Shown here piece by piece: positions 442 to 44,701 of a stretch of DNA of 64,000 nucleotides (the stretch's first letter is position 1; each line of letters starts with the position of its first letter). The stretch lies in assembly GCF_004300825.1 (NCBI RefSeq), contig NZ_CP036250.1:62001-126000 (forward strand). The letters are read 5' to 3'. The position numbers and the translations under genes are program-made. The stretch is from Egicoccus halophilus. Lineage in GTDB: Bacteria; Actinomycetota; Nitriliruptoria; Nitriliruptorales; Nitriliruptoraceae. A model generated the notes under the pieces. That model did no database searches. It worked only from the letters and a program-made list of their open reading frames with translations, and had not been told where the DNA came from.

Positions 442-1389
442 TCAGTACCCGCGGTCGAGATCGATGACCCCAAGTGGACGTTCGCCCTGGCGCAACCGGC
501 GCAGGTTCTCCCGTACCCGGCTGGCGTAGTGGGGCAACAGGACGGGTGGTGGGCAGGCGACGTGCGGTGTGATCAACACCCGTGCGTGCGACCACAGGGG
601 ATGGTCTTCGGGCAACGGCTCCGGATCGGTGACGTCAAGCGCTGCGCCAGCGATGCGACCGTCGTCGAGGGCGGCGAGGAGGGCGCCGGTATCGACCAGG
701 GAGCCACGCGCCAGGTTGTGCAGCCACGCGGTGGAGCGCATCGCCTCGAGTTCCGCCGCGCCCACCAAGGAGCGCGTCGCGTCCGTCGCCGGTGCGAGCA
801 GGACCACGTGATCGACGATGGGCCAGAGCTCGTTCAGTTGTGACGCAGCCAGACTGCGTGTCGCTCCCTCCACGGTCCTTCCGCTGCGGGTGACCGCAAC
901 GACACTCGCCCCGAGCGGCCGCAGCAGCGCGAGGAGACGTTCGCCGATCCCGCCACAACCGACGATGCCGACGACCGAGCCGTCGAGAGAGGTCCCCGCC
1001 CGCTCCCACCGCTTCCCCCAGTCCGAGGCACGGGCGCACTCATGGAGGCGTCGGCAGGCGGCAAGCAGCAGCGCCAGGGCGTGCTCTGCCACCGGGGCGG
1101 CATAGACACCAGCGGCAGCCGCGTAGGTCCAGCGAGCATCGATACTGCCCTCGGCCACCCACCGGTCGATGCCGGCGAATGGCAACTGGACCAGGGCGAT
1201 GTCGTCGTGGCGTGCATCGAGGAACCCGTCGCCGTCGATGTTGGCCCAGACGATGACGTTCGCGTCAGCGGCGTCCGCGACGAGCGTCGCCTCCGAGGTG
1301 ACGGCCTCGACGAGTTCCGGTGGCGCGCCGGGCTGCAGATACACCCGTGGCGGCACATTCGCCGGCAAGGCGATGACTCCTGAGGTCAC
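442..1389 (-). CDS. D-isomer-specific 2-hydroxyacid dehydrogenase
   Basis: This is a 315-residue NAD(P)-dependent dehydrogenase predicted to interconvert a D-2-hydroxyacid and a 2-oxoacid in the cytosol. The Rossmann motif GCGGIG lies near residue 145. The catalytic Arg is in LARGSLVD, the Glu in DPEPLPEDHP and the His in ITPHVA, so the active-site triad is intact. It starts with GTG overlapping the stop of the upstream GntR gene (GTGA), indicating translational coupling to its likely regulator. The substrate is unknown. The paralogue at 36778-37791 has a different sequence and is not a recent copy. Confidence 0.9.
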   Translation of the reverse strand: MTSGVIALPANVPPRVYLQPGAPPELVEAVTSEATLVADAADANVIVWANIDGDGFLDARHDDIALVQLPFAGIDRWVAEGSIDARWTYAAAAGVYAAPVAEHALALLLAACRRLHECARASDWGKRWERAGTSLDGSVVGIVGCGGIGERLLALLRPLGASVVAVTRSGRTVEGATRSLAASQLNELWPIVDHVVLLAPATDATRSLVGAAELEAMRSTAWLHNLARGSLVDTGALLAALDDGRIAGAALDVTDPEPLPEDHPLWSHARVLITPHVACPPPVLLPHYASRVRENLRRLRQGERPLGVIDLDRGY

Positions 1390-2159
1390 GAGCGACCCTT
1401 CAGATCCTCGAGCCGCCGGTTCAGACGCTGCGTCTGCCGTTTCAGGTGGTGCTGCATGATCTCGACCGCCTGGCCCTCGTCCCGCGAGGAGATCGCGGTG
1501 ACGATGTCGCGGTGCTCGTTCCGGTCGGGCCCGATCCCGTAGTCCTGCGACCCTTCCTTGGCCTCCGCGAGCGAAACGAGCATCGGCCAGTAGAGCGCCT
1601 CCACGACCAGGGCGAATGCCGGGTTGTGGCTTGCCGCGGCCAACCGAACATGGAACTCTGCCGACAAACGGATGTCGTAGTCGCCACTCTCGATTGCGGC
1701 GTCCCGGCGCGCACAGATGTCGAACAGTTCGTCGATGTCGTCGTCGGTGGCCCGGGTACAGGCGAGCCGGACGGCCTCCACCTCCAAGGCGAGTCGCACC
1801 TCGGTCACATCCATGGCGGTGACATCCGACAGGATCAACAGGTTCGCCAGGCCTTCGCGCAGCATCGTCGGGGGCGGCGTCGTCACGAACGCCCCGCCCT
1901 TCGCGCCTGCGCGGATGCGGATCAGCCCCTTGGCCTCCAGCACCCGCAACGCGTCACGCACGGTGACCCGACTCACGCCGGACTGTTCGGCGAGTTCGCG
2001 TTCCGGCGGCAGACGCTCGCCCACCTGCAAACGGCCAGAGATGATCGCCGACTCGGCCTGTCGGACGATCGCGCCAGAGACGCGACCCGTCTGCACCGGC
2101 TGGAAGATCACTTCGCTCGCCTGCGCCGGTGGAGCCTGAACTTCATTCTTGTTGACCAT
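1386..2159 (-). CDS. GntR-family (FadR/FCD) transcriptional regulator, copy 1
   Basis: This is a 257-residue regulator. The N-terminal winged helix-turn-helix covers roughly residues 25-95 and includes LPPERELAEQSGVSRVTVRD. The C-terminal FCD effector domain covers about 115-245 and has the typical metal/ligand residues around EFH170, EHRD and MQHH. The family usually represses catabolic genes and releases DNA on binding an organic acid. The ATG follows an AAGGGG ribosome site. Its stop overlaps the start of the 2-hydroxyacid dehydrogenase. It differs from copy 2 mainly at residues 143-158, plus S60F, W191G and the last few residues. The DNA target is unknown; candidate palindromes in this window are listed separately. 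Confidence 0.93.
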   Translation of the reverse strand: MVNKNEVQAPPAQASEVIFQPVQTGRVSGAIVRQAESAIISGRLQVGERLPPERELAEQSGVSRVTVRDALRVLEAKGLIRIRAGAKGGAFVTTPPPTMLREGLANLLILSDVTAMDVTEVRLALEVEAVRLACTRATDDDIDELFDICARRDAAIESGDYDIRLSAEFHVRLAAASHNPAFALVVEALYWPMLVSLAEAKEGSQDYGIGPDRNEHRDIVTAISSRDEGQAVEIMQHHLKRQTQRLNRRLEDLKGRS

Positions 2160-2282
2160 GCTCGGCCCCTTGTGTCGAACTGCGTCGTGCTCCGACCGAG
2201 GAAGGAGCCACCTGCATCCAGGCCTCTATCGGTCGTCGCTTCAGCCGGTGCTGCGCGAACGCCGCTGAGTTTCGACCATTCA

Positions 2283-2293
2283 ACCAGTTTGGT
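2283..2293. promoter_or_regulatory. Inverted repeat ACCA-N3-TGGT upstream of GntR copy 1
   Basis: ACCAGTTTGGT is a perfect 4-bp inverted repeat with a 3-bp spacer, about 125 bp upstream of the start codon. Copy 2 has ACCACTCTGGT at the equivalent place, so the arms are kept while the spacer has changed. That pattern suits an autoregulatory operator, but binding is inferred. Confidence 0.4.
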
Positions 2294-2735
2294 CTGAAAG
2301 TTACACCCTGGCGGGGTTGCCGCACCCTCCGGCGTCAGGCAGGCGAGCGGAAGAATGGATCGAGGGCAGCCGAACTCGACCGCGGCCACGCGTCGACGCC
2401 CCTGCCGCCACCGCGAGTCGGTGACCAGGGGGCGCGGTGCGACTCTCAAGCTGCCGGGTCAGCGTGGCGCGACATTAGCCGACGCCGTCCGTGCCCCGCG
2501 GGCTATCGCTTGCCTTGCTCTTCTCGGCGGGCTTGCCGTCGGGATCGTTCTCGAGGACCTGGGCGGCGCCGCGGCAGGTGATCCCGATCAGGCCACCTCA
2601 CCTTGACGCGCCCCGAGTGACGAACATGCTGTCGCGCACGTCCGTCGACAAACCATGACCGTCGTCGGCCAACACACGCTGTGGCCCACACGAGGACGAC
2701 CGCATCAGCAGCATGTTGCGAGGCGCATCGCCTCC
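2294..2735. other. Intergenic stretch between the two GntR copies, no gene recognised
   Basis: This interval of about 440 bp holds only short frames without a convincing ribosome site or recognisable motif. The minus strand near 2484-2600 reads as a short peptide-like stretch that could be the tail of a decayed gene, but nothing identifies it. The last bases before 2736 correspond in position to the start of the dehydrogenase gene after copy 1. They diverge within about 15 nt, so copy 2 appears to have lost its dehydrogenase partner. Confidence 0.4.
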
Positions 2736-2739
2736 GAGG

Positions 2740-3513
2740 TCACGAACCGCCCTTCAGGCCGTTGAGCCGTCGGTTCAGGCGCTGCGTCTGCCGTTTCAGG
2801 TGGTGCTGCATGATCTCGACCGCCTGGCCCTCGTCCCGCGAGGAGATCGCGGTGACGATGTCGCGGTGCTCGTTCCGGTCGGGCCCGATCCCGTAGTCCT
2901 GCGACCCTTCCTTGGCCTCCGCGAGCGAAACGAGCATCGGCCCGTACAGCGCCTCCACGACCAGGGCGAATGCCGGGTTGTGGCTTGCCGCGGCCAACCG
3001 AACATGGAACTCCGCCGACAACCGGATGTCGTAGTCACCGGTCTGGAGGGCGGACTCCGTACGCGTGCAGATGTCCAGGAGCGCCCGGATGTCGTCGTCG
3101 GTGGCCCGGGTACAGGCGAGCCGGACGGCCTCCACCTCCAAGGCGAGTCGCACCTCGGTCACATCCATGGCGGTGACATCCGACAGGATCAACAGGTTCG
3201 CCAGGCCTTCGCGCAGCATCGTCGGGGGCGGCGTCGTCACGAACGCCCCGCCCTTCGCGCCTGCGCGGATGCGGATCAGCCCCTTGGCCTCCAGCACCCG
3301 CAACGCGTCACGCACGGTGACCCGACTCACGCCGAACTGTTCGGCGAGTTCGCGTTCCGGCGGCAGACGCTCGCCCACCTGCAAACGGCCAGAGATGATC
3401 GCCGACTCGGCCTGTCGGACGATCGCGCCAGAGACGCGACCCGTCTGCACCGGCTGGAAGATCACTTCGCTCGCCTGCGCCGGTGGAGCCTGAACTTCAT
3501 TCTTGTTGACCAT
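2740..3513 (-). CDS. GntR-family (FadR/FCD) transcriptional regulator, copy 2
   Basis: This 257-residue paralogue of the regulator at 1386-2159 has the same winged-helix and FCD architecture. An upstream in-frame ATG would extend it to 3663. I choose the ATG at 3511-3513 because it matches copy 1, has AGGGG upstream, and the extra stretch is the duplicated promoter region. About ten substitutions fall in residues 143-158 of the FCD domain (for example D143R, E144A, A150T, R152T), while the DNA-binding domain differs only at S60F. The two proteins would therefore be expected to bind the same DNA but may sense different ligands. It is transcribed divergently from the MFS gene at 3727. Confidence 0.93.
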   Translation of the reverse strand: MVNKNEVQAPPAQASEVIFQPVQTGRVSGAIVRQAESAIISGRLQVGERLPPERELAEQFGVSRVTVRDALRVLEAKGLIRIRAGAKGGAFVTTPPPTMLREGLANLLILSDVTAMDVTEVRLALEVEAVRLACTRATDDDIRALLDICTRTESALQTGDYDIRLSAEFHVRLAAASHNPAFALVVEALYGPMLVSLAEAKEGSQDYGIGPDRNEHRDIVTAISSRDEGQAVEIMQHHLKRQTQRLNRRLNGLKGGS

Positions 3514-3635
3514 GCTCGGCCCCTGTGTCGAACTGCGTCGTGCTCCGACCGAGGAAGGAGCCACCTGCATCCAGGCCTCTATCGGTCGTCGCTTCAGCCG
3601 GTGCTGCGCGAACGCCGCTGAGTTTCGACCATTCA

Positions 3636-3646
3636 ACCACTCTGGT
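3636..3646. promoter_or_regulatory. Inverted repeat ACCA-N3-TGGT upstream of GntR copy 2
   Basis: ACCACTCTGGT lies in the divergent interval between GntR copy 2 and the MFS gene at 3727. It is the counterpart of 2283-2293 with a different spacer. A role as operator for either gene is inferred. Confidence 0.4.
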
Positions 3647-3726
3647 ATGAAGTTTGCACCCATGCCATCGGCGGCTGCCCGCAGCGGAGGCGGACGCCAA
3701 CGCTAGTCGGCACCGGAGGACCGGCC

Positions 3727-6044: not shown

Positions 6045-6593
6045 TCAAGCCCAGAAGGCGGCCGGCAGACGCAGGTTGTAGAGGCGTTCGAGTGTGACGA
6101 AGACCACGACGAGCGCGCCGGCTCCGGCGATGGCGAAGGGCCAGCGGAGCTCGCCACGGAGCAGGAGAAAGCCAGCGACGAACCCGAAGCTGGCGAGGTG
6201 GAAACCCACCAGGAAGATCATGAGGAGGTAGCCGGCGAAGACGCCCCAATAGGCCAGCGATGCGCCCAGCTCTCCGGATGAGAGGGGGTCTGTGCCTTCG
6301 TCGGATTGGCCGCCGGGTGGCCCTGGTTCGTGCGCGACGCCCGAGATGTCGATGTGATCGGCTGTCGCCTCCCGTCCCGGAACGTCACGGATCGGTCGGC
6401 GACGCCACCACTGCATGCCTCGTCCGATCAGGAGGGTCGACGTGACGAAGACGCCGGAGCCGCCCAAGAAGAGTGGTAACGGCCGTGACTGAGACCGGAA
6501 GCCGCCGGCTTGGAGCCCCGCAAGGATGAACAGCAGGAGCAGTGCCCACAGGACCACGGCCTGAGCTGCATCACGCTTGTCACCGTGCGCCAT
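6045..6593 (-). CDS. tctB: Tripartite tricarboxylate transporter small permease (TctB)
   Basis: This is a 182-residue membrane protein with about four hydrophobic helices, two near residues 12-60 and two in the C-terminal half, separated by a polar loop rich in Asp, Gly and Pro. That is the TctB layout. The ATG at 6591-6593 has GGAG six bases upstream, so I prefer it to the GTG at 6644 that overlaps tctA. It partners TctA and the periplasmic receptor TctC to import carboxylates using the ion gradient. Confidence 0.87.
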   Translation of the reverse strand: MAHGDKRDAAQAVVLWALLLLFILAGLQAGGFRSQSRPLPLFLGGSGVFVTSTLLIGRGMQWWRRRPIRDVPGREATADHIDISGVAHEPGPPGGQSDEGTDPLSSGELGASLAYWGVFAGYLLMIFLVGFHLASFGFVAGFLLLRGELRWPFAIAGAGALVVVFVTLERLYNLRLPAAFWA

Positions 6594-6636
6594 CTGGGTC
6601 TCCTGGCTGTTGTCTCGAATCACGCGTCGTCCGACG

Positions 6637-8103
6637 CTAGACACGGTTGCGCCGACGAACGAGCGGAATGCCGACGGTCAGGACCACGATCACGAGGCCG
6701 AGACCGATGACACTCGGCTCTCTGAGGAATCCCCACTGATACAGGCCGCGCGTGAGGAACAGGTACCGCTCCGCACTGACGGAGAGCACAAAACCGATCA
6801 GCATGGGTGGGCGTGGGATTCCTACGTGGTTGAGCACCCAGCCGAGCAGGCCGATGACGAGCAGGGCGATGATGTCGCCGATGCGGCCACTGCTCTGGTA
6901 GGCCGCCATTGCCACCAGCACCAGGATGAACGGCATCAACCGGGACGCTCGGATTGTCGTCAATCGAGCGATGGGCCGGATGAAGATGAAGCAGGCCAGA
7001 ACACCGACGACATTGGCGAGGGCGAGCGTCCAGGCCACACTAATCGTGAAGGACAGGTCTCGTTCAAGCATGCCGGGCCCGACCTGAAGCCCAAGAAGGG
7101 TCAGGCCGCCGATCATGACGGCCATGACCCCGCTGCCGGGGATGCCGAACACGAGCGTCGGTAGGAATGACCCGCCCTCCTTGGCATTGTTGGCGCTCTC
7201 GGGGGCGATGACCCCTCGGATGTCGCCCTTGCCGAAGTTTTCGCTGTCCCGATAGGTCTGTTGCGCGACGCCGTAGACGAGCCAGTCGACGACCGCCCCG
7301 CCCAAGCCCGGAACCGCTCCGACCGCCATTCCCATGACGGAACTGCGCAGGATCAGCCAACGGTGCTGCAGAGCGGCGCGTACTCCGGCAGCGATGCTGC
7401 CTTCGAGCCGTCCTTGGCTCGCGACCGAAGACCCCTTGGCCAGGAGGTTGATGATCTCCGGCATGCCGAACAGGCCCAGTGCGAGGACGGCCAGTGGTAT
7501 GCCGTCCGTGAGGTAGGCCGTCCCGAACGTGTAGCGGGGGAAACCATCCACGGGTGCGACACCGACGACCCCGAGCAGGGCGCCCAGCAGCGCGGACAGC
7601 AGACCCAGTCCGGGCGCCTTCTGGCTGAGCACGCCGACGAGGCTCAGTCCGAGCAACGTGAGCATGAGCAGTTGTGGGGACCGCAACTGCAACAACAGCG
7701 GCCGCGCGACGCCGAGCACCGCCAGAAGGGCAAAGGCTCCGAACAAGCCGCCAAGGACCGAGGCCGTGAACGCGGCGGCCAGGGCCTCCTTGGCGCGGCC
7801 CTGCCGGGCCAAGGGGTAGCCGTCCATGATCGTGGCTTGGGCGCCAGCAGACCCTGGGACACCGATGAGCACGGCGGGGAACGTGTCGCTGGTGGACCCG
7901 ACCGCGACCGCGCCGGTAAGCAGCGCCAGCCCGTTGACCGGATCCATGCCGAAGATGAACGGCAGGATCATCGACATACCGACGATGCCGCCGAGGCCCG
8001 GAATGAGTCCGATGGTGAGCCCGAGGCTCACCCCGAGCAGCAGGAATCCCAGATAGCCGGGCGTCGCGATGTACTGCAGCGCCTCGACGGATGCTTCGAG
8101 CAT
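6637..8103 (-). CDS. tctA: Tripartite tricarboxylate transporter large permease (TctA)
   Basis: This is a 488-residue protein with many hydrophobic helices and the family-typical segments TIGLIPGLGGIVGMSMILPF near residue 30 and GSAGAQATIMDGYPLARQG near residue 100. A mirrored PGLGGAVVDW and FGIPGSG lie in the second half. The ATG at 8101-8103 follows GGGAG and leaves out a 14-residue polar extension. It is the transport channel of the TTT system. Confidence 0.95.
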   Translation of the reverse strand: MLEASVEALQYIATPGYLGFLLLGVSLGLTIGLIPGLGGIVGMSMILPFIFGMDPVNGLALLTGAVAVGSTSDTFPAVLIGVPGSAGAQATIMDGYPLARQGRAKEALAAAFTASVLGGLFGAFALLAVLGVARPLLLQLRSPQLLMLTLLGLSLVGVLSQKAPGLGLLSALLGALLGVVGVAPVDGFPRYTFGTAYLTDGIPLAVLALGLFGMPEIINLLAKGSSVASQGRLEGSIAAGVRAALQHRWLILRSSVMGMAVGAVPGLGGAVVDWLVYGVAQQTYRDSENFGKGDIRGVIAPESANNAKEGGSFLPTLVFGIPGSGVMAVMIGGLTLLGLQVGPGMLERDLSFTISVAWTLALANVVGVLACFIFIRPIARLTTIRASRLMPFILVLVAMAAYQSSGRIGDIIALLVIGLLGWVLNHVGIPRPPMLIGFVLSVSAERYLFLTRGLYQWGFLREPSVIGLGLVIVVLTVGIPLVRRRNRV

Positions 8104-8208
8104 TGCTTCTCGTCTCCCAGCTTCCGCCTGAATGCTCGTGACCACTCCCGTCGACCAGCACCCACGCCTTCGCGGTCACGCCCGGAGGTCTGGACGCGCC
8201 CAGTCAAC

Positions 8209-8252
8209 GGCCGGAGCCGGTGCGGCACGAAAGCGTCCCGCCGGCTCCGGCC
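8209..8252 (-). terminator. Strong intercistronic stem-loop between tctC and tctA
   Basis: There is a perfect 12-bp inverted repeat (GGCCGGAGCCGG and its complement) around a 20-base loop, just after the tctC stop and before the tctA start. There is no T-run on the minus strand, so it is better read as a processing or stability element, or partial attenuator, that would give more receptor than permease. Confidence 0.6.
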
Positions 8253-8270
8253 ACCGTTCGTCCGGCGCTG

Positions 8271-9443
8271 TTATCGCTCGAAACCGTAGCCCTCCAGCCA
8301 CGTCAGCCAAGCCTCGAGAGCCTCGTCCGGGACGTCCAGCAGGGCAAACAGTTCCTGTGCTTCGTCCCCAGCGCTTGGCACCTCGTCCCCGGTCGCCTCG
8401 AACAACTCGGCACCGAAGTCCTCGTCCTGTTCGAGGGCCTGGAAGCCATCCCGGATCGCATCCAGGACCTCCGGAGGCGTCCCGGCCGGTGCGAACAGGC
8501 CCTTCTGCAGGCCGTATGCGACGGCATGCAGACCTCGGAAGACCTCCCATTCGAACATGTCGGTGCCGTCCTCACCATAGACGGCCTCCCACAGTTCCTG
8601 CGCCGACGGTACGTCGGGTATCCGCTCGGGCCGAACGAGGTCGCCGCCTTCGAGCAGGCCAGGGTTCACGACGGGGATGACCTCACCGGCCTCGATCTGG
8701 CCCTGCATAGGAGAATCGAGGAACTGCGCCGTCGGAGGGTTGTAGAGATTCAACTCCCCCTGCTCGAACGCCGTGCCGATCGCCCCCGTCCCGTCGAAGC
8801 CGGGCAGGAAGTTAAGGTCCGCCCCGAGCTGGTCGAGCAGGTAGTAGACCGCGGTCGGCGCGGAGACGTAGTCGGTCGCGCCGCCGAGGAACGTGGCGTC
8901 TTGAATGGACGTGAGGTCGTCGGGGTCGTAGCCGGTGCCGGGCACGGTGACGTACATGCCAGCGGTCTGCAGGGCCGCCAACACCTCCCACTCCCGGAAG
9001 TCGTACTCGACCAGCTCGTTGCCGATCAGGGCGTTGAACACGACCGGGCTCGAAGTGAGCAGCCAGGTGTAGCCGTCGGCTTCCGCCCGAGCGAACTGGT
9101 TGGAGCCGACGATCCCGCCACCGCCTTCGACGTTCACGACCTGCACGTTCGGGTTCCCCGGGATGTACTGCCCCACGTTGGCTGCCATCAGCCGGGCAAG
9201 GGTGTCGGTCCCACCGCCCGTCGAGTACGGCACGATCAGCTCGATCGTCTCGCCCTCGAAGTACGCGGCGATGTCGTCTTGTGCCTCGGTCTCATCGGCG
9301 CCACCGTCGGCGTCATCACTGCCGGCTGCGGGCTCGGTCGGGCCCGTCTCCGGCTGCGTGTCGGCCTCGGTGCCGCAGGCCGACACCAACAGGGCGATCG
9401 CGCCGAGCGCGGCCAGCCAACGGGACGTGCGGGTCGGCATCAT
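8271..9443 (-). CDS. tctC: TTT-family solute receptor lipoprotein (TctC/Bug type)
   Basis: This is a 390-residue extracytoplasmic receptor. The signal segment WLAALGAIALLVSAC ends in a lipobox with Cys near residue 22, followed by an acidic, low-complexity linker. The Bug-type fold starts at ETIELIVPYSTGGGTDTLAR. Two adjacent ATGs (9443 and 9440) are possible; a GGGAGAAGAG run lies upstream. It heads the tctC-tctA-tctB run and is separated from tctA by a strong stem-loop. Such receptors bind di- and tricarboxylates or aromatic acids such as terephthalate; the ligand here is unknown. Confidence 0.92.
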   Translation of the reverse strand: MMPTRTSRWLAALGAIALLVSACGTEADTQPETGPTEPAAGSDDADGGADETEAQDDIAAYFEGETIELIVPYSTGGGTDTLARLMAANVGQYIPGNPNVQVVNVEGGGGIVGSNQFARAEADGYTWLLTSSPVVFNALIGNELVEYDFREWEVLAALQTAGMYVTVPGTGYDPDDLTSIQDATFLGGATDYVSAPTAVYYLLDQLGADLNFLPGFDGTGAIGTAFEQGELNLYNPPTAQFLDSPMQGQIEAGEVIPVVNPGLLEGGDLVRPERIPDVPSAQELWEAVYGEDGTDMFEWEVFRGLHAVAYGLQKGLFAPAGTPPEVLDAIRDGFQALEQDEDFGAELFEATGDEVPSAGDEAQELFALLDVPDEALEAWLTWLEGYGFER

Positions 9444-9525
9444 CTTGTGCTCTTCTCCCATTCGTGGTGTCGTGTGTGATCCGCGACCTGCCGTCAGCGG
9501 GTCGGGTGCTCCCCCGGTCCGGCGG

Positions 9526-10584
9526 CTACCGCAGACAATCCATCGGACCGCTGCTGCCCTCGGATGTGGTCGGTTTCTCCTGCCCGGCCCTCGCGGTCGA
9601 CAAGAGGGCCTCCATCCAGGCCTCGACGTCATGCGTTGTCAGTCGGTTCTTCGCGAGTTCGCCGGCGACGGCGCTCACATGAGCGACTTCGGATATCCCG
9701 ATGACGGGGCTGGTGATGGTCTCCGCCGCGAGCGAGAACGCCGTCGCGAGTTCGGGGATCCGGCAGCCCTTCGAGCCGCACCAGTCGTCGAGGAGCGCGG
9801 TCACGGCAGGCGTCCACTGGACGTCGTTGTCCGGGACGCGGGCGCCCGGTGGAGGCGAGGTGCCATCACCCGACCGTGCCGAGAGATACCCGCCGGCCAA
9901 CGGCCGGATGCCCAGGACGGCCAGCCCCCGCGTCTGGGCGAAGGCCCCGACACCCTCGTAGTCGTACGCGTCCCAGTCGGGGCCGCCGGCTCGGGCGACG
10001 GTCGGGTTCAGTAGATGGAAGGACGCATTGATCGCGTCGAGCAGTCCCAGGTCGATGACGCGGCGGATCTCGGCCGAAGCACCGCCATAGGTGGTGACCC
10101 CGATCGCTCGCACCTTGCCGCTGTCCCGCAGCTCACGCAGTTGGTCGCCAACCCCGCCGGGCATCGAGAAATCGTCGAGAGCGAGCGTCGGAAGACGCCC
10201 GTCGAGTGCGATCCTCACGCCAGAGGGGGCGATCCGGTTGTGCACCTGGTAGAGATCGATGTGGTCGCGGCCAAGTCGACGCAGGCTTTGTTCGCACGCA
10301 CGGAGTACACCGCCGGGGTCGGCTGCATCCGCCTGAACGCTCACCTTCGAGGCGACGGTCACGTCGGCTGGGCGGAGTTTGTGCAGTACCCGACCGAGCG
10401 CCTCCTCCGAGGCGCCGTCGCCGTACTTCGCGGCGGTGTCGAAAGTCGTGATCCCGGCCTCGATCGCCTGCGCGATCACCTGTGTCTGCTGCTGCTCATC
10501 GCCCGCGACCATCAGGCCTGCGTTGTCACCACACCCGAAGATGACGGACGAAACCACCACACCGCTGCGCCCAATGGTCGGCAC
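9526..10584 (-). CDS. Aldo/keto reductase
   Basis: This is a 352-residue (beta/alpha)8 oxidoreductase. The AKR catalytic tetrad is visible: Asp and Tyr in TTFDTAAKYGDG, Lys in VASKV and His in LYQVHNR. It starts at GTG with AGGGAGAGCG upstream. It lies 67 bp downstream of Rieske oxygenase copy 1 and 82 bp upstream of tctC, all on the minus strand, which suggests a shared transcript. It probably reduces or oxidises a carbonyl intermediate with NADPH; the substrate is unknown. Confidence 0.88.
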   Translation of the reverse strand: MPTIGRSGVVVSSVIFGCGDNAGLMVAGDEQQQTQVIAQAIEAGITTFDTAAKYGDGASEEALGRVLHKLRPADVTVASKVSVQADAADPGGVLRACEQSLRRLGRDHIDLYQVHNRIAPSGVRIALDGRLPTLALDDFSMPGGVGDQLRELRDSGKVRAIGVTTYGGASAEIRRVIDLGLLDAINASFHLLNPTVARAGGPDWDAYDYEGVGAFAQTRGLAVLGIRPLAGGYLSARSGDGTSPPPGARVPDNDVQWTPAVTALLDDWCGSKGCRIPELATAFSLAAETITSPVIGISEVAHVSAVAGELAKNRLTTHDVEAWMEALLSTARAGQEKPTTSEGSSGPMDCLR

Positions 10585-10651: not shown

Positions 10652-11986
10652 CTACTCGTCGACGCCGACGGGTTCGACCTGCGCCCAGGCGACGTCCTCG
10701 TGCCACGGATTGTTCGCATCCATCGCTTCTGCAGCGCCGACGTCGAAGGGTGTGTCACGGTCGACGAGCAACCCGACCCCGCGGACGAAGTACGGGTCAC
10801 CGCCACCAGGCACCGACAGTTGGCCGTTCTTCTGAACCTCCTGGGCCTGCTTGAGCAGCAACCGTCGCGAATGGATGATCGCGGCATCCGACGTCGCCAG
10901 ACGCTCCTTGCTCCGGTCCACGATTGGCCCCATCGACACGGTCACGGACTGATCCTGGGTTGGGATGCCCTTGATGCCGCTGTAGGTCCCGCTGCGCTGC
11001 AGGCTGCGGTCGATCAGGAAGTCGTTCTCCAGCGTCTGCACCGGCCGATACGTGCCCGGCACCGTCTGCGGGAAGATGTTGCCGCCATGGCGGTACTCGT
11101 AGACCTCTTCGTCGGTCAACGGCTTCTGCGGGCGGTACTGGGTCCGGTAGAACATGTGGCGGTGGTCGTCGATCGGGATCCGCATGTTGCACTGCAACAC
11201 CGAACCCGCCTCACGCGGCGTGATCGAGAAGGCCGGGAACAACCACTGGGTGATCCGCCAGTAGTAGTGCTCGTCTCCGCCATACCGGCGCGCCGCGGCC
11301 ATGAACCCGTAGTCGGTGTCGATCAGGAAGAACTTCGGCGCCCGATCGATGAACGAGAACCGACGCAGACGCTCCTTGCGTGTCTTGTTCGCGCTGCCCC
11401 GGTCCACCGAGTCCTCGCCGACACGCCCGTGCAGGAAGGCGGTGTGGCTCGAATCGATGTCGCCTTCCATCGCCTGCGCGTAGTTGCAGTCGACCTCGAT
11501 CTTGGCCAGGAACCGATGCTCCTCAGGGACCAGGCTCCACTCCATCGCCGGCATCTGCGGCTCGTGCTCCTCCGGCCCCATGTAGGTCCAGACCGCCCCA
11601 CCCTGCTCCACAGTGGGATAGGCCTTGATGGTCACCTTCTCCTTGAACTGGGTGTCCGGCGGCTCGTTGGGCATGTCGACACACTGCCCATCACGATCGA
11701 ACTTCCACCCGTGATACGTGCACCGCAGACCGCAGTCCTCGTTGCGACCGAAGAACAACGACGCCCCCCGGTGAGGACACGCCTCGTCGACCAACCCCAC
11801 CTTGCCGGTCGAGTCACGAAACGCCACCAGATCCTCACCCAACAACCGCACCCGCACCGGCGCGCAGTCCGGCGCGGGCAACTCTTCCGACAGCAGCGCC
11901 GGAATCCAGAAGCGACGGAACACCTCCCCCATCGGGGTCCCCGGCCCGGTCCCGGACAACACCTCGTTCTGCTCTTGCCTCAACAT
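10652..11986 (-). CDS. Rieske non-heme iron aromatic oxygenase, alpha subunit, copy 1
   Basis: This is a 444-residue phthalate-dioxygenase-type oxygenase. The Rieske cluster ligands are C70, H72, C89 and H92 (CPHRGA and CTYHGW). The mononuclear iron site is in EGDIDSSHTAFLH, with H181 and H186. The ATG is preceded by AGGAG at five bases. The family hydroxylates or O-demethylates carboxylated aromatics and needs a separate reductase, which is not in this window. It is 1339 bp identical in extent to copy 2, with 5 mismatches outside and 18 mismatches inside a 31-bp block at 11378-11408, which encodes residues 193-203 just after the iron-binding His pair. It is likely driven by the promoter at 12029-12058. 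Confidence 0.93.
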   Translation of the reverse strand: MLRQEQNEVLSGTGPGTPMGEVFRRFWIPALLSEELPAPDCAPVRVRLLGEDLVAFRDSTGKVGLVDEACPHRGASLFFGRNEDCGLRCTYHGWKFDRDGQCVDMPNEPPDTQFKEKVTIKAYPTVEQGGAVWTYMGPEEHEPQMPAMEWSLVPEEHRFLAKIEVDCNYAQAMEGDIDSSHTAFLHGRVGEDSVDRGSANKTRKERLRRFSFIDRAPKFFLIDTDYGFMAAARRYGGDEHYYWRITQWLFPAFSITPREAGSVLQCNMRIPIDDHRHMFYRTQYRPQKPLTDEEVYEYRHGGNIFPQTVPGTYRPVQTLENDFLIDRSLQRSGTYSGIKGIPTQDQSVTVSMGPIVDRSKERLATSDAAIIHSRRLLLKQAQEVQKNGQLSVPGGGDPYFVRGVGLLVDRDTPFDVGAAEAMDANNPWHEDVAWAQVEPVGVDE

Positions 11987-11996
11987 CTGAACTCCT
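10658..11996. repeat. Direct repeat, Rieske copy 1
   Basis: This segment pairs with 12518-13856 at an exact offset of 1860 bp and without indels. It covers the gene from its ribosome site almost to its stop, but neither promoter. By direct comparison there are 23 mismatches in 1339 bp, and 18 of them are in 11378-11408. Confidence 0.95.
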
Positions 11997-12028
11997 CACG
12001 ATCAGGCGTTCCCGACCCCACCTCAATG

Positions 12029-12058
12029 GTTATACCTTCATGCCTTCCTGCGTGTCAA
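12029..12058 (-). promoter_or_regulatory. Sigma-70-like promoter for Rieske copy 1, with operator-like motif
   Basis: On the minus strand TTGACA (12053-12058) is followed after 18 bases by TATAAC (12029-12034). TGGTTATACCT (12027-12037), one mismatch from TGGT-N3-ACCA, overlaps the -10 box. The promoter sits inside the last codons and the stop codon of the small gene at 12030-12434. Confidence 0.6.
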
Positions 12059-12434
12059 CCGATGCTTGCCTCGACCGGAGCTCACGCACCCGTGCGGCGA
12101 ACTCCTCGTCGCCACGAAGTCGATCGACCTCCACGTCGAGAAATTTCCGGAGCGGGCCGAAGCCGGCCTCGTCCACGTGCCGCTCGACATCGACCCCGCG
12201 CCTGGCCGGTCGCGGGACGCGGACGTCGCCTCCGGCAGCGAGTCGGTCGACCAGATACCCCATCAAGTGCTCGTCGAGAGCGTCCATCGCGGTCCACGGC
12301 GACGCATCGATGGCGTAACAGTCCTCGAGTTCGGGGTACTCCGCCCGGCGAAGCCACGTGCCTTGCTCGTCCTGGACCGGACGTACGTGCATGACGTACG
12401 GCGTCGCGAGCAACTGTCGCAGGGTCACTGCCAT
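12030..12434 (-). CDS. HicB-like small protein between the two Rieske genes
   Basis: This is a 134-residue protein of unknown function. The ATG at 12432-12434 follows GGAG at good spacing; a longer frame exists but has a poor start. Residues 10-65 resemble the HicB/UPF0150 partial RNase-H-like fold: a strand pair followed by an E-P-E-L-like turn (AEYPELEDCYAIDAS) and an amphipathic helix. The rest is charged and helical. No HicA toxin lies alongside, so a toxin-antitoxin role is not supported. It lies 71 bp downstream of Rieske copy 2 and runs into the promoter of copy 1, so it could be an accessory protein or a regulator of the oxygenases. The fold call is by eye only. Confidence 0.6.
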   Translation of the reverse strand: MAVTLRQLLATPYVMHVRPVQDEQGTWLRRAEYPELEDCYAIDASPWTAMDALDEHLMGYLVDRLAAGGDVRVPRPARRGVDVERHVDEAGFGPLRKFLDVEVDRLRGDEEFAARVRELRSRQASVDTQEGMKV

Positions 12435-12505
12435 ACCTGACTCCAAGAGGGTCATTCGATCGAAGGGAGCACGGCCGCGCTGTCGAGGTCCGGCTCCTCC
12501 ATCGG

Positions 12506-13846
12506 TCATCCGGCGTGGTCGACGCCGACGGGTTCGACCTGCGCCCAGGCGACGTCCTCGTGCCACGGATTGTTCGCATCCATCGCTTCTGCAGCGCCGA
12601 CGTCGAAGGGTGTGTCACGGTCGACGAGCAACCCGACCCCGCGGACGAAGTACGGGTCACCGCCACCAGGCACCGACAGTTGGCCGTTCTTCTGAACCTC
12701 CTGGGCCTGCTTGAGCAGCAACCGTCGCGAATGGATGATCGCGGCATCCGACGTCGCCAGACGCTCCTTGCTCCGCTCCACGATTGGCCCCATCGACACG
12801 GTCACGGACTGATCCTGGGCAGGGATGCCCTTGATGCCGCTGTAGGTCCCGCTGCGCTGCAGGCTGCGGTCGATCAGGAAGTCGTTCTCCAGCGTCTGCA
12901 CCGGCCGATACGTGCCCGGCACCGTCTGCTGGAAGAGGTTGCCGCCATGGCGGTACTCGTAGACCTCTTCGTCGGTCAACGGCTTCTGCGGGCGGTACTG
13001 GGTCCGGTAGAACATGTGGCGGTGGTCGTCGATCGGGATCCGCATGTTGCACTGCAACACCGAACCCGCCTCACGCGGCGTGATCGAGAAGGCCGGGAAC
13101 AACCACTGGGTGATCCGCCAGTAGTAGTGCTCGTCTCCGCCATACCGGCGCGCCGCGGCCATGAACCCGTAGTCGGTGTCGATCAGGAAGAACTTCGGCG
13201 CCCGATCGATGAACGAGAACCGACGCAGACGCTCCTTCCAGAAGCGCGCGCCGCTGCCGTTGTCCAGGGAGTCCTCGCCGACACGCCCGTGCAGGAAGGC
13301 GGTGTGGCTCGAATCGATGTCGCCTTCCATCGCCTGCGCGTAGTTGCAGTCGACCTCGATCTTGGCCAGGAACCGATGCTCCTCAGGGACCAGGCTCCAC
13401 TCCATCGCCGGCATCTGCGGCTCGTGCTCCTCCGGCCCCATGTAGGTCCAGACCGCCCCACCCTGCTCCACAGTGGGATAGGCCTTGATGGTCACCTTCT
13501 CCTTGAACTGGGTGTCCGGCGGCTCGTTGGGCATGTCGACACACTGCCCATCACGATCGAACTTCCACCCGTGATACGTGCACCGCAGACCGCAGTCCTC
13601 GTTGCGACCGAAGAACAACGACGCCCCCCGGTGAGGACACGCCTCGTCGACCAACCCCACCTTGCCGGTCGAGTCACGAAACGCCACCAGATCCTCACCC
13701 AACAACCGCACCCGCACCGGCGCGCAGTCCGGCGCGGGCAACTCTTCCGACAGCAGCGCCGGAATCCAGAAGCGACGGAACACCTCCCCCATCGGGGTCC
13801 CCGGCCCGGTCCCGGACAACACCTCGTTCTGCTCTTGCCTCAACAT
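12506..13846 (-). CDS. Rieske non-heme iron aromatic oxygenase, alpha subunit, copy 2
   Basis: This 446-residue paralogue of the oxygenase at 10652-11986 has the same Rieske ligands (C70, H72, C89, H92) and iron site (H181, H186). It differs at residues 194-203 (copy 1 VDRGSANKTR, copy 2 LDNGSGARFW), at I/L and P/Q in the GGN-F-QT segment, and at the C-terminus. In the family this region follows the helix bearing the iron ligands, close to the substrate pocket, so altered substrate range is plausible. The AGGAG ribosome site is identical to copy 1. The promoter-like sequence is at 13916-13944. Confidence 0.93.
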   Translation of the reverse strand: MLRQEQNEVLSGTGPGTPMGEVFRRFWIPALLSEELPAPDCAPVRVRLLGEDLVAFRDSTGKVGLVDEACPHRGASLFFGRNEDCGLRCTYHGWKFDRDGQCVDMPNEPPDTQFKEKVTIKAYPTVEQGGAVWTYMGPEEHEPQMPAMEWSLVPEEHRFLAKIEVDCNYAQAMEGDIDSSHTAFLHGRVGEDSLDNGSGARFWKERLRRFSFIDRAPKFFLIDTDYGFMAAARRYGGDEHYYWRITQWLFPAFSITPREAGSVLQCNMRIPIDDHRHMFYRTQYRPQKPLTDEEVYEYRHGGNLFQQTVPGTYRPVQTLENDFLIDRSLQRSGTYSGIKGIPAQDQSVTVSMGPIVERSKERLATSDAAIIHSRRLLLKQAQEVQKNGQLSVPGGGDPYFVRGVGLLVDRDTPFDVGAAEAMDANNPWHEDVAWAQVEPVGVDHAG

Positions 13847-13856
13847 CTGAACTCCT
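12518..13856. repeat. Direct repeat, Rieske copy 2
   Basis: This is the second copy of 10658-11996, in the same orientation with no indels. The divergent block corresponds to 13238-13268. Confidence 0.95.
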
Positions 13857-13947: not shown

Positions 13948-15264
13948 TCACGGATCTGCCGCGGCCGCCCGTGAATTGAGCGGAGCAGTCCGCAGCGCGG
14001 CAGCACTCATCAACAACGCGGCCGAGAGCACGAGGAAGATCGCCCCCGGCCCGAGCACGGCGGCCACGCCCCCGAACGTGGCCGGGACCACGACCTGGCT
14101 GAACCGGTTTCCGCTCATGCGCACCGCAAGCACCGTCCCGCGCTCCGCGCGTGGCGTCGTCTGCGTCAGCCACGCCATCGTCAACGGCGTAGCGATCCCA
14201 AGGCCGAATCCCATCACCGCGAGACAGATGCCGAGGCCGACGACCGAGCCGAGCGTTGCGATGCCGGCGAGCGAGACCGCGGCGGAGAGCATCGCCCCCA
14301 CGAGCAGGGTCCGACGCCGCAACCGGGTGATCAGGGCCGGCAAGGCGAGCCGGGATGCGAGCCCGGCACCGGCGCGGACGGCGAGCAAAGCTCCCACGGC
14401 CGACGGTCCGATCCCCCGGGCCTCACCGATGACCGGCAGATAGATGATGGAGAGATCCACGGTCGAGAGGGTCGCGATGCCGACGAGCAGCGCCTGGGGG
14501 ACCCCGGGACGCCGCAGCAACGTCGGGATGCTGCTCTGGTTGGCGGCCCCATCGGCCGACGAGCGATTCGACCGCAGTTCGACGTCCACAGGAATGACGA
14601 ACCACGCGATGACCGTCCCACCGAACGCAAACGCTGCCGCCATGAGGAACGCGGCCAGAGACGCACGTGTGGCGAAGATCCCGACGAGACCACCGTCCAG
14701 CACGACACCGGCGAGATACGGACCCAGCAACTGGCCGACGGAAGCCGCGACGGCCAGCCGCGCGAAGCCTCGGTCCCGGTCGCTGTGGCGGCGATTGGCG
14801 GTCATGGTCTGAAAACCGATCGCGGCCATGACCCACCCGCTCCCGACGAGCACCTGACCGAGGGCAAGCCAAGCGAGCCCCGGCGCGAAGGCACATGCGG
14901 CTGCCCCCAGGCCGGTCGAGAAGGTGCCCGTCAAGAAAAAGAACCGCGGGTCAGCGCGATCGACGGCCCGCCCGATCGGCACCGCGAGAAACATGGCCAC
15001 CGCGCCATACGAGGCAGCGACCAGACCGACGGCAACGACCGTGCCGCCGAGCTCGAGCGTCCGATAGGTGGCGGCGGGGCGGATCGCGTGGTTACTGACA
15101 CCGACGATGGCGAAGGCGACCAGGCCGCCGAGCGCGCCGTCGAGCCAGCCACTCGCCCGCGAGAGATGCACGCCACGCCCCTTCGGTTCGCGTGGGGCAT
15201 GCGCCTGTGCCCGCAATGGACGCAGCGGTCCCCTGAGACGCTTTCGACGACGGATCAAGAACAT
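13948..15264 (-). CDS. MFS transporter
   Basis: This is a 438-residue major facilitator with about 12 hydrophobic helices. Its first 40 residues are basic and hydrophilic, so a downstream GTG near residue 32 is an alternative start; no clear ribosome site precedes the ATG at 15264. It lies upstream of Rieske copy 2 on the same strand and is divergent from the aldo/keto reductase at 15381. It is probably an importer of the oxygenase substrate or an exporter of products. Confidence 0.87.
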   Translation of the reverse strand: MFLIRRRKRLRGPLRPLRAQAHAPREPKGRGVHLSRASGWLDGALGGLVAFAIVGVSNHAIRPAATYRTLELGGTVVAVGLVAASYGAVAMFLAVPIGRAVDRADPRFFFLTGTFSTGLGAAACAFAPGLAWLALGQVLVGSGWVMAAIGFQTMTANRRHSDRDRGFARLAVAASVGQLLGPYLAGVVLDGGLVGIFATRASLAAFLMAAAFAFGGTVIAWFVIPVDVELRSNRSSADGAANQSSIPTLLRRPGVPQALLVGIATLSTVDLSIIYLPVIGEARGIGPSAVGALLAVRAGAGLASRLALPALITRLRRRTLLVGAMLSAAVSLAGIATLGSVVGLGICLAVMGFGLGIATPLTMAWLTQTTPRAERGTVLAVRMSGNRFSQVVVPATFGGVAAVLGPGAIFLVLSAALLMSAAALRTAPLNSRAAAADP

Positions 15265-19210: not shown

Positions 19211-19221
19211 TCCGCGAGGTC

Positions 19222-19656
19222 CTACTCCTCGTCCGCCTTCACGGCGAGCACCGAACACTCGGCTCCGAGCAGGATGTCCTGCGAGTTGCTGCCCAGGATC
19301 AGCTTGCCCACGCGTGATCGCCGGCGAATGCCAACGACGATGAGGTCCGCCTCGTACTCGGCAGCGGCGCCCAGAACCGCATCGGCCGGCGTGCCCGCCG
19401 CTGCCGGGACGGAAACCGCGACGGTGACGTCGCGCGCACGGAACTCTTCGGCGAGCCGCTCGAGCTCCTCTTCGCGTTTGCGTAGATCATTCAGATAGTG
19501 GCCGGCCTCGTCCTCTCCCCGAGGCCGTGCGACGTGACCGACTAGCACGACCCGACCGCCAGCCTCGCGAACCAATTCCGTGGCCTCGTCGATCGCGGCC
19601 CGCCCCGCCGGCGTCAGGAGGGCGCCGACCACGACGGTCTTGGCTTGCTGTGTCAT
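19222..19656 (-). CDS. Universal stress protein (UspA family)
   Basis: This is a single 144-residue Usp domain. The ATP-binding-like signature near the C-terminus reads GIRRRSRVGKLILGSNSQ, followed by the usual CSVLAVK strand. It converges on the GlcD-GlcF gene with an 11-bp gap. Partner and trigger are unknown. Confidence 0.9.
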   Translation of the reverse strand: MTQQAKTVVVGALLTPAGRAAIDEATELVREAGGRVVLVGHVARPRGEDEAGHYLNDLRKREEELERLAEEFRARDVTVAVSVPAAAGTPADAVLGAAAEYEADLIVVGIRRRSRVGKLILGSNSQDILLGAECSVLAVKADEE

Positions 19657-19750
19657 CTTCTCACCTTGCTACGCCTCGGACCGTGTTCCGCTCGAGTGTC
19701 GGCGGCGACGGCACCTGCACGGACGCGAGGAACCGGTCACGCACAGATCG

Positions 19751-20018: not shown

Positions 20019-21110
20019 TTACGACTTCTGCGGTTCTATCACCAGATGGACCGCGTCACGCGCCTGCAACCGCTCGAACGCTTCGGCGACGTTCTGCAAG
20101 CCATAGGTGGGCTCGTGCAGCGGCGCGATGTCGATGCGGCCCGACCCCAGCCAGGCGAGTGCCGTCTCGACGGCCTCAAAGCCGTGCCCGCGGACACCCC
20201 TGACCGTCACTTCCTTTGCCAGGATCGTCTTCAGTCCGGGCAACTCGTCGGCCGCGCCGGTCGCCGCCATCACGACCCGCCCGCCACGTCGGACCACGTC
20301 GAGTGCCACCGACATCGTCAGGGTTCCCGCCCCGGAGATATCGGCCACGACGTCGACGCCATCTGGCAGGCGCTTCAGGACCGCATCCGTGACGTCCTGC
20401 TCGTCCGCCACCAGCACCTCGTCGGCCCCGAGGACCGAGGCCAACTCCAGCCGATGGCGATCCTGAGCCAGCCCCGACACGATGATCGGGCCGCACCCGG
20501 CGGCCTTCGCCGCCATCAAGCAGGCCAGCCCCTGCTGGCCAGGCCCTTGGATCAACACCGATTCCCCCGCCCGAACACCGGCATCGATCGTCATCCACTG
20601 GACCCCGTTGCTCAATGGCAACGCGAACGTCGCGACATCCGCCGGCACACCTTCGGGTACCTCGTGGAGCACCGTGTTCGGGTGCAGGTATTGATGCTGC
20701 GCGAAGCCGCCCCACAGCTGCGGGGACCGGGTGATCGACGTCGTGCCGTAGCGCAACGCCTTCGGATCGCGGCTGTTCGTCTGGGCGCAGGCGCGATAGC
20801 GGCCGATCCGGCACGGTCGGCATGCGCCACAGGGGACATACTCCTCCATGAGGTAACGCCGCTCGGAATTCACACCCCACCGCGCGATGGTTGCCTCGTC
20901 GCCATCGATGACCCGTCCAACCGTTTCGTGGCCGAGGATCACCGGCGCCGGGAGGTCACCGAAGAACTTGGGTATATCCGCGCCACAGATGCCCGAGGCG
21001 TCGATCTCAAAGATGGCTCCGTCATCCGGATCGGGAACCGTGAACTCCCGGACCTCACTGTGTCTGGACGCCTGCGTGACGGCGGCCAGCGTCGACCGCG
21101 GCCTCACCAT
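20019..21110 (-). CDS. Zinc-dependent alcohol dehydrogenase (MDR family)
   Basis: This is a 363-residue medium-chain dehydrogenase. Catalytic zinc ligands are in GICGAD and GHETVG. Structural zinc cysteines are in CGACRPCRIGRYRAC. The NAD-binding motif GPGQQGLACL lies near residue 190. The start overlaps the end of Rieske oxygenase 3 by 7 bp, so the two are translationally linked. It probably oxidises an alcohol or dihydrodiol-like product of the oxygenase; this is inferred from context. Confidence 0.9.
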   Translation of the reverse strand: MVRPRSTLAAVTQASRHSEVREFTVPDPDDGAIFEIDASGICGADIPKFFGDLPAPVILGHETVGRVIDGDEATIARWGVNSERRYLMEEYVPCGACRPCRIGRYRACAQTNSRDPKALRYGTTSITRSPQLWGGFAQHQYLHPNTVLHEVPEGVPADVATFALPLSNGVQWMTIDAGVRAGESVLIQGPGQQGLACLMAAKAAGCGPIIVSGLAQDRHRLELASVLGADEVLVADEQDVTDAVLKRLPDGVDVVADISGAGTLTMSVALDVVRRGGRVVMAATGAADELPGLKTILAKEVTVRGVRGHGFEAVETALAWLGSGRIDIAPLHEPTYGLQNVAEAFERLQARDAVHLVIEPQKS

Positions 21111-22378
21111 CGGGCCACCAACTCGCCCTTGAAGTAATCCCGCCAGTCACCGTCTTCCTCGGTGAGGATGGCCTCCGCCGGACGGATCTGGCTGGTGATC
21201 TGACGGTCGGTACCCCGCAGCGGGCGGCCGGCCTGCACGTCCTCTATGGCGTCGAGCAGCAGGCGCCGGGCGGCGATGATCGCTCGATCCGAAGTTCCGA
21301 GGTGTTCCCGGCTCCGGTCGCAGATGGGATCCATCCCCTCCTGCAGAGCGAAGTCCTGGGTGTTGATGCCTTCGATGCCAGTGTAGGTCTGCGTCCGCTG
21401 GACTTCACGGTCGATCAGGTAGTCGTTCGAGGCATTCCGCTGCAGCCAGTACGTCTCACCGATGAAGTGCTCGGGCCCGCGCCCGGCGCGCGACTCCGAC
21501 CGTTCGAAGTCTTCGCGAGAGAGAGGGATGTCGAGGTCGGTCGGAGCCATGAAGTTGTAGACGGCCGTGGTGTAGTCGTCCATCGGCGCCCACAGATGCC
21601 CGTGCATGGTCGGCATGTCGTTTGGCTGCCCGTCCCACGCCACCGTGGCTGGCCGAATCTGCTGGAAGGGCATCACGAACTGATAAACCCGGATGTAGCG
21701 GCGGTTCTCGCTGATGCGGCGGATGCTGGCGTAGCGGAAGCCGTAGTCGGTGACCTCGACCTCGAGTTTTGGATGCGTGTCCTGCTGACGGAGCAGGGAC
21801 GTCGTCGAAAGGTCGTTGTTGTGCGCGAATGACGAGTGGGTCGTATCGATCCCACCTTCGAGAGCTTGCAGCCAGTTGGCGCGCTCGTTGGTACGCGAGA
21901 CGCCACCCCCGCCTTTGAAGGCACGCATCCACTCGTAATCGGGCGCCTCCGGCATCTCGGCCCGCGGCCCCAGGTAGGCCCAGACCACCCCGGCGGCCTC
22001 ATGCGTGGGGTAGGCCGTCATGTTGATCTTGGCCTTCAGCGGGCTGTCCGGCGGCTCGGACGGGAGGTCGACACAGTTGCCCGCGGTGTCGAACTTCCAG
22101 CCGTGGTAGACGCAACGCAGACCCGCTTCCTCGTTTCGACCGAAGAACATCGGTGCACGACGGTGCGGACACTTCGAGTCGATCAGCCCGACCTCGCCGC
22201 GGCTGTCTCGAAACGCGACGAGCGACTCGCCAAGCAACTGGACGCGGACGGGAGGCGAGTCGGGCTCGGCCACCTCCTGGGCTAGCAGTGCGGGCTGCCA
22301 GTACCGCCGCATCACCTCACCCATCGGCGTGCCGGGCCCGACGCGGGTGATTGCTTCGTTCTGTTCGGCCTTCAGCAT
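21104..22378 (-). CDS. Rieske non-heme iron aromatic oxygenase, alpha subunit (third)
   Basis: This is a 424-residue phthalate-type oxygenase. Rieske ligands are C70, H72, C89 and H92; iron ligands H181 and H186 lie in EGGIDTTHSSFAH. It shares length and motif positions with the two copies at 10.7-13.8 kb but is clearly divergent. The ATG at 22376-22378 follows GGGAG. An open frame continues upstream to 22921 but only as antisense of the SDR gene. It is divergent from the SDR at 22499 and coupled to the downstream alcohol dehydrogenase. No reductase gene is visible. Confidence 0.93.
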   Translation of the reverse strand: MLKAEQNEAITRVGPGTPMGEVMRRYWQPALLAQEVAEPDSPPVRVQLLGESLVAFRDSRGEVGLIDSKCPHRRAPMFFGRNEEAGLRCVYHGWKFDTAGNCVDLPSEPPDSPLKAKINMTAYPTHEAAGVVWAYLGPRAEMPEAPDYEWMRAFKGGGGVSRTNERANWLQALEGGIDTTHSSFAHNNDLSTTSLLRQQDTHPKLEVEVTDYGFRYASIRRISENRRYIRVYQFVMPFQQIRPATVAWDGQPNDMPTMHGHLWAPMDDYTTAVYNFMAPTDLDIPLSREDFERSESRAGRGPEHFIGETYWLQRNASNDYLIDREVQRTQTYTGIEGINTQDFALQEGMDPICDRSREHLGTSDRAIIAARRLLLDAIEDVQAGRPLRGTDRQITSQIRPAEAILTEEDGDWRDYFKGELVARW

Positions 22379-22498
22379 CGCTCGCTCCCTTTCAGTCGCG
22401 ACAGTCCAGCGGTCGTACGCGGCTTCCACCCACCGACTGCCTGTGTACCGTACCTTTGGTGTGGTGTAAAGGTCAGACCGTGGACAGAGGAGGGCATC

Positions 22499-23311
22499 GT
22501 GACAGAACTGCTGGCGGGAAGGATCGCGCTCGTCACCGGCTCCACGAGCAACATCGGTCTTGCCACAGCGCGTGAGCTGGCCGCACACGGCGCCCTCGTC
22601 GTCGTTCACGGACGCGACCCGGCGCGTGCCGAGCCCGTTGCCGCGGAGCTCGACGGCGACGTCGTCACCGGGGATCTCGCGAACCTCGACGAGATCGACG
22701 CCATGTTCGAGCAAATCGGGCGGCGCCATGGACGTCTCGACATTCTCGTGAACTCCGCGGCCACCACGTCGCGCACTCACCTGCTCGAGCTCGAACTGGA
22801 GGAGTGGACGCGCGCCATGGCCATCAACGCCACCGCCGTCCTGCGCACCATCCAGCAGGCCGTGCCCTTGATGCCCGACGGCGGCGCCATCGTCAATATC
22901 ACGACCTCTCTCGTCCCCCAACCAGCCATCGGGCGCGGCGCATATGCGGCGTCGAAGGCCGCAATGGACGCACTCACTCGTCAGGCGGCACTGGACCTGG
23001 CGGGTCGGGGCATCCGCGTGAACGCCGTCGTGTCGGGCCAGGTCGGGAGTCCTGTCGGGCAGCGCGAGCTCGGTCGCCGGTCAACGTCGACACCAACGAT
23101 CCCGCTGGGTCGGATCGGCCGCCCCGAAGAGATCGCGAGCGTCGTCCGGTTCCTGGCGTCGGACGACGCGAGCTATCTCACCAATTCGTTCGTCACCGTC
23201 GACGGCGGGCGCATGCACGCCGCCGCCGTCGACGGCTTCCCCGGCCCACGCGTCGGGGGCTCCCACGCGAATTCGTCGTCACCGACCGGGCGGGCCGGAT
23301 CCGGCCGTTGA
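22499..23311 (+). CDS. Short-chain dehydrogenase/reductase
   Basis: This is a 270-residue SDR with cofactor motif TGSTSNIG, NSAA in place of NNAG, catalytic Ser in NITTS and YAASK. It starts at GTG with AGGAGG upstream. The C-terminal 30 residues beyond the fold are low-complexity and polar. It is divergent from Rieske oxygenase 3 and upstream of an MFS gene. It likely acts on an oxygenase product; the substrate is unknown. Confidence 0.9.
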   Translation: MTELLAGRIALVTGSTSNIGLATARELAAHGALVVVHGRDPARAEPVAAELDGDVVTGDLANLDEIDAMFEQIGRRHGRLDILVNSAATTSRTHLLELELEEWTRAMAINATAVLRTIQQAVPLMPDGGAIVNITTSLVPQPAIGRGAYAASKAAMDALTRQAALDLAGRGIRVNAVVSGQVGSPVGQRELGRRSTSTPTIPLGRIGRPEEIASVVRFLASDDASYLTNSFVTVDGGRMHAAAVDGFPGPRVGGSHANSSSPTGRAGSGR

Positions 23312-43269: not shown

Positions 43270-43309
43270 GCACTGATGCTCCTTGACGGACCGGAAGGCC
43301 AGTCTAATA

Positions 43310-43491: not shown

Positions 43492-44701
<1,210 letters not shown>

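Follow-up and report, generated by a model that had tools for sequence, protein, structure and literature searches.

Two adjacent genes for Rieske-type oxygenases in the 64,000-nucleotide stretch of the Egicoccus halophilus genome analyzed here (hereafter called the window) are 97% identical and differ chiefly in one block of 31 bp, which encodes part of a predicted lid of the active site. We consider it probable, at roughly two chances in three, that they are old tandem paralogs homogenized by gene conversion, with the lid left as an unconverted island. This interpretation is based on the synonymous differences within the pair and on the presence of the same mosaic signature in other gene pairs of the genome.

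Distribution of differences between the two genes

The ungapped comparison of the two repeat units (offset 1860, table 1) reveals 23 mismatches in 1339 positions, 18 of which lie within the block and five outside it (5/1308, at 10916, 10960, 10961, 11070, and 11077), exactly as counted in the preliminary description of this DNA. That description had also excluded random drift as the cause of such clustering, a judgment that our calculations uphold: the best 31-bp window never contained more than six differences in 20,000 random placements of 23 differences, and the Fisher probability is about 2e-28. The block runs from the third position of codon 193 to the first position of codon 203 and has equal length in the two copies. 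Its first half is recognizably homologous, with 13 of the 18 bases of codons 193-198 equal between copies, whereas 13 of the 15 bases of codons 199-203 differ and this second half seems unrelated. The resulting changes are V194L, R196N, A199G, N200A, K201R, T202F, and R203W, besides a synonymous change at S193. Outside the block, four of the five differences also change amino acids (I304L, P306Q, T343A, and D357E, the change at P342 being synonymous), and T343A is located two residues from the iron ligand D345. Overall, the proteins differ in 11 aligned residues, of which the lid accounts for seven, and at the very end of the C-terminus by a few residues, in line with the previous claim of two oxygenases that differ almost only at a loop.

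Near-identity reaches from 10 bp before the ATG, in the Shine-Dalgarno region, to a point 6 bp short of where the stop codon of copy 1 ends. Beyond these limits the flanks retain background similarity only and are unrelated between the copies: copy 2 is flanked by a transporter of the MFS type and the spacer ORF, copy 1 by the spacer ORF and an aldo/keto reductase. The 134-aa product of the spacer ORF has no match in Pfam, the PDB, or the genomes tested, and a HicB-like identity proposed by eye was dropped because nothing matched.

These different and unique flanks, together with the assembly of the genome in one contig (3.98 Mb, 97.5% completeness, 0.23% contamination), make a simple duplicated-contig artefact unlikely. 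More broadly, assembly or polishing might have homogenized two truly diverged copies or produced a false second copy, and the occurrence of several mosaic tandem pairs in a single assembly could mean a consensus problem. However, the single-contig genome with its low contamination, the separate flanks and intact reading frames of both copies, the sharp shifts from zero to 40-60% divergence, which are unlike those of mis-mapping, and a comparable mosaic pair in the genome of another species (see below) render artefacts of this sort very improbable.

Table 1. Features of the window relevant to the oxygenase pair and its surroundings
Feature	Position	Strand	Domain matches
Copy 1, Rieske oxygenase alpha subunit, 444 aa, block SVDRGSANKTR	10652..11986	-	LigXa_C 1.7e-44, Rieske 1.7e-19
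Copy 2, Rieske oxygenase alpha subunit, 446 aa, block SLDNGSGARFW	12506..13846	-	LigXa_C 4.7e-43, Rieske 1.7e-19
Presumed homogenized repeat unit, copy 1, 1339 bp, Shine-Dalgarno region almost to stop codon	10658..11996	-	
Presumed homogenized repeat unit, copy 2	12518..13856	-	
Divergent island, copy 1, codons 193-203, predicted active-site cover, 18 of 31 bases different	11378..11408	-	
Divergent island, copy 2	13238..13268	-	
Unique spacer between the repeats, without repeats elsewhere in the window	11997..12517	.	
Small spacer ORF, 134 aa, plausible Shine-Dalgarno sequence	12030..12434	-	
Aldo/keto reductase, directly downstream of copy 1	9526..10584	-	
MFS transporter, directly upstream of copy 2	13948..15264	-	
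TctB/TctA/TctC tripartite transporter genes, downstream, same strand	6045..9632	-	
Third LigXa-type Rieske oxygenase, 46% identical, without either block	21104..22921	-	
RraA-like aldolase	42583-43323		
LigB ring-opening dioxygenase	43838-44701		
GntR/FCD regulator copy A with upstream region, second mosaic tandem pair	1382..2308	-	
GntR/FCD regulator copy B, second mosaic tandem pair	2736..3661	-	
Divergent island in regulator copy A, codons 142-167, pS 0.57, pN 0.20	1659..1733	-	

The oxygenases and the position of the block

By the evidence of their sequences, both genes encode Rieske oxygenases of the LigXa/phthalate dioxygenase type with intact metal ligands. Rieske and LigXa_C domains are found in both copies above the Pfam cut-off, while the Rieske ligands C70, H72, C89, and H92 (C-x-H and C-x2-H), as well as the 2-His-1-Asp iron site formed by H181, H186, and D345, are invariant in an alignment of 55 sequences. 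The closest proteins of the PDB by sequence are isophthalate dioxygenase, a Cupriavidus Rieske oxygenase, and phthalate dioxygenase; the best Foldseek matches of both models are isophthalate dioxygenase (9ina/9ioy), 7fhr, and phthalate dioxygenase (7v25/7fjl). The conserved R244 matches R244 of phthalate dioxygenase in the alignment, and R208 aligns with its R207 within a gapped region. Both arginines are common to the two copies and may correspond to the carboxylate-binding pair R207/R244 of phthalate dioxygenase (PMC12445078).

Because a tripartite transporter, GntR regulators, a third LigXa-type oxygenase, a LigB dioxygenase, and an RraA-like aldolase are nearby, we may reasonably infer that the genes of this neighborhood would serve the degradation of aromatic acids. 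No cognate reductase was found among the window genes scanned with Pfam. About 1 kb beyond the LigB dioxygenase lies a gene for an IS3-type integrase (rve, 45824-46537, + strand), which possibly marks a mobile boundary of the catabolic cluster.

The block starts seven residues past the second iron-ligand histidine, and codon mapping agrees with its earlier placing in residues 193-203, after H181 and H186. Within the family alignment, no other internal stretch is as variable and as gapped as that around 195-213, and the equivalent region forms an active-site cover that consists of two helices in isophthalate dioxygenase and is disordered in phthalate dioxygenase and others (PMC12445078). The structure prediction suggested in the preliminary description has now been carried out with AlphaFold, producing models that average near 90 pLDDT in both copies; residues 193-200 of copy 1 and 194-198 of copy 2 are the only internal stretch with pLDDT <50, and the helix that follows starts at 203 in copy 1 and at 200 in copy 2. 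Homology and modelling thus support a position of the block within the flexible active-site cover. The block is predicted to be a flexible, surface-exposed lid adjoining the pocket, rather than a fixed wall of the pocket itself. To judge from their residues, the two lids differ in character, that of copy 1 being polar and basic (NKTR), that of copy 2 aromatic (ARFW). In Rieske oxygenases, substrate entry and selectivity are believed to be guided by the lid loop, yet enzymes of this kind found in nature usually differ at hundreds of positions besides the lid. The pair is a near-isogenic natural loop swap, the comparison of which would test the role of the lid almost in isolation.

Probable gene conversion and its alternatives

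Outside the block pS is 0.0033 and pN 0.0040; inside it they are 0.59 and 0.53, respectively, the block values being approximate because some of its codons carry several changes. Were the outside synonymous rate as high as its upper 95% bound, the block would be expected to hold 0.6 differences, versus the 18 observed. Since synonymous sites act as a clock, the block was not made by point mutation after the rest of the genes became identical, and the contrast between a pS of 0.003 outside and about 0.6 inside indicates a different ancestry, either older or foreign. A freshly duplicated gene could also have acquired the block by a burst of point mutations under positive selection, a diversity-generating retroelement, or a local template switch, any of which would suit differences that are mostly amino-acid-changing. 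This possibility is extremely slim: the synonymous change within the block and the saturated synonymous islands of a regulator pair (see below) argue for age; the retroelement is rejected because the differences are not adenine-directed (coding-strand A at 6/18 sites in copy 1 and 2/18 in copy 2), and the template switch because no nearby direct or inverted template exceeds the shuffled expectation.

Other gene pairs of the genome show the same type of mosaic. The tandem GntR/FCD regulators, 95% identical and located 8-9 kb from the oxygenase pair, have one mismatch in 1738-2286, 22 in 1659-1733, and nine in 1392-1425. Outside the islands they show no differences at 168 synonymous sites, whereas pS reaches 0.57 in codons 142-167 and 0.42 in codons 245-257; near-identity extends to ~130 bp upstream of the start of copy A. 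In the regulator island pN is well below pS, unlike the oxygenase block, in which the two are about equal. A third mosaic tandem pair, 2.9 Mb away near 3.016 Mb, encodes secreted PKD-domain proteins that are 93% identical (L123:15744-17533 and 18079-19868, G000:C1 about 3,015,744-3,019,868), in which 892 bp of uninterrupted identity adjoin strongly diverged stretches having up to 43 differences in 150 bp. These pairs come from about 744 kb of the genome sampled in stretches, which include the window and about 680 kb elsewhere. Of note, a 262-bp direct repeat with 97.7% identity, its copies 1.9 kb apart (L142:18581-18842 and L143:508-766, G000:C1 about 2,518,581-2,520,766), is possibly a fourth homogenized pair. 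One mosaic pair was present in 400 kb sampled from another member of the phylum (G134); the repeat matches in G010 mostly resemble internal repeats, and the tandem regulator pairs of relatives, which are not necessarily orthologous to the GntR pair, are strongly diverged.

Gene conversion is favored because the same mosaic signature appears in the unrelated GntR pair and in the third pair elsewhere, and it also explains why identity stops at the gene ends. In the oxygenase, GntR, and PKD pairs, tracts of near-zero synonymous divergence abut saturated tracts, as conversion predicts; it equally predicts the confinement of identity to the homologous segment between unrelated flanks that is seen in the oxygenase pair. 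The homologous first half of the block appears, on sequence grounds, as expected for a relic of old divergence. The process that we infer would start from old tandem paralogs encoding alpha subunits of the LigXa/phthalate dioxygenase type in one gene cluster; recent conversion would then have homogenized their whole shared gene length except for the 31-bp island, in which residues 193-203 of the lid would keep the divergence that preceded conversion. The outcome would be a pair of enzymes that share their scaffold, their metal sites, and almost every pocket residue. With their lids distinct, they may be expected to let in or retain different substrates within one class of aromatic acids. A single tract of conversion would have taken in the block as well, so that its escape would require either two tracts or selection against its conversion. 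The age of the duplication can only be deduced, because an orthologous oxygenase pair was not found in any relative examined.

The preliminary description had offered either gene conversion or the swapping in of a foreign segment. In the latter case, a recent duplication of gene length would have been followed by the replacement of a short segment of one copy from an outside oxygenase gene, which would fit the youth of the sequence outside the block and the apparently unrelated second half of the block. Yet neither block has a donor in its own genome at up to three mismatches, the only hits being the copies themselves, and no relative above about 53% full-length identity was found among GTDB genomes, plasmids, viral contigs, and some 500 genomes of the class and phylum. 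Moreover, one would not expect a recent duplication to break off at the two gene ends and leave the flanks wholly unrelated, and the first half of the block is homologous, with its length preserved. We consequently regard such import as unlikely. A survey of 299 genomes from the family of locus L002 and of 396 from the phylum brought up no further LigXa-type pair in tandem. Given the lack of close relatives, the ancestral block cannot be polarized: profile scores slightly favor copy 1 (562 bits vs 555 bits for copy 2), whereas the block of copy 2 holds more of the glycine-aromatic motif of the family, so that the two indications point in opposite directions and we call neither block ancestral.

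Returning to gene conversion, the oxygenase mosaic is fairly ordinary in a genome in which other pairs are patched likewise, and islands need no special function, since the regulator and PKD-protein pairs also keep them. It is plausible that the two lids were kept distinct by selection for different substrates. On the other side, islands persist in the other two pairs, where they are not known specificity elements; a hypervariable lid would be a natural barrier to conversion, and the probability that a chance island would land on the lid is estimated very roughly at 0.1. In a tentative sub-case of the favored explanation, the likelihood of which overlaps with that of the whole and which we hold at somewhat below even odds, the island survives only because it is too dissimilar for heteroduplex extension, without selection on substrates. 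The high variability of the family around 195-213 and the equal survival of islands in regulators and secreted proteins agree with this sub-case; against it, pN and pS are about equally high in the block, which is not so in the regulator island, and most differences outside the block also change amino acids, one of them near D345, features that are weak pointers to selection. It is rather doubtful, though conceivable, that the pair works as a loop-swap system, in which frequent conversion keeps the scaffold identical while selection protects the lid, thereby obtaining two specificities from one cluster. If so, improvements of the scaffold would be common to both oxygenases, and paired regulators and other proteins of the genome may follow the same strategy. 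With its recurring mosaics, this genome lends itself to measurements of gene conversion among tandem paralogs in a bacterial lineage that has received little study.

Comparison with known systems

The cat/pca IJF genes of Acinetobacter are near-identical paralogs of catabolic clusters that are kept alike by conversion; they encode different enzymes and, to our knowledge, no retained specificity island has been described for them. The isophthalate (9ina/9ioy) and phthalate (7fjl/7v25) dioxygenases of Comamonas testosteroni KF1 resemble the oxygenases of the window in fold (TM 0.87-0.88 to 9ina and about 0.8 to 7v25), in Rieske and iron ligands, and in the flexible cover after the second histidine. 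T182, R208, and R244 of the window enzymes align with S182, R207, and R244 of phthalate dioxygenase, the match of R208 falling in a gapped region. These Comamonas enzymes, however, have about 35-42% identity to those of the window and are encoded by single genes.

A close parallel is provided by the PpoC alpha subunits of Phenylobacterium immobile E, Rieske oxygenase paralogs of the same genome that differ mainly in one loop (PMC7907043, PMC7889853). This variable segment near the catalytic iron is equivalent to loop 1 of cumene dioxygenase (residues 236-264) and to the epsilon-loop of naphthalene dioxygenase (PMC7907043, PMC7889853). The PpoC proteins share 64-89% identity, are encoded at scattered places in their genome, and depend on a beta subunit, whereas the present pair is 97% identical and in tandem, belongs to the LigXa/phthalate dioxygenase class, and has a mosaic of the conversion type at the DNA level. 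Paralogs differing mainly in a loop have thus already been reported, and the pair described here is a more extreme, tandem, and apparently conversion-patched example in another class of oxygenases.
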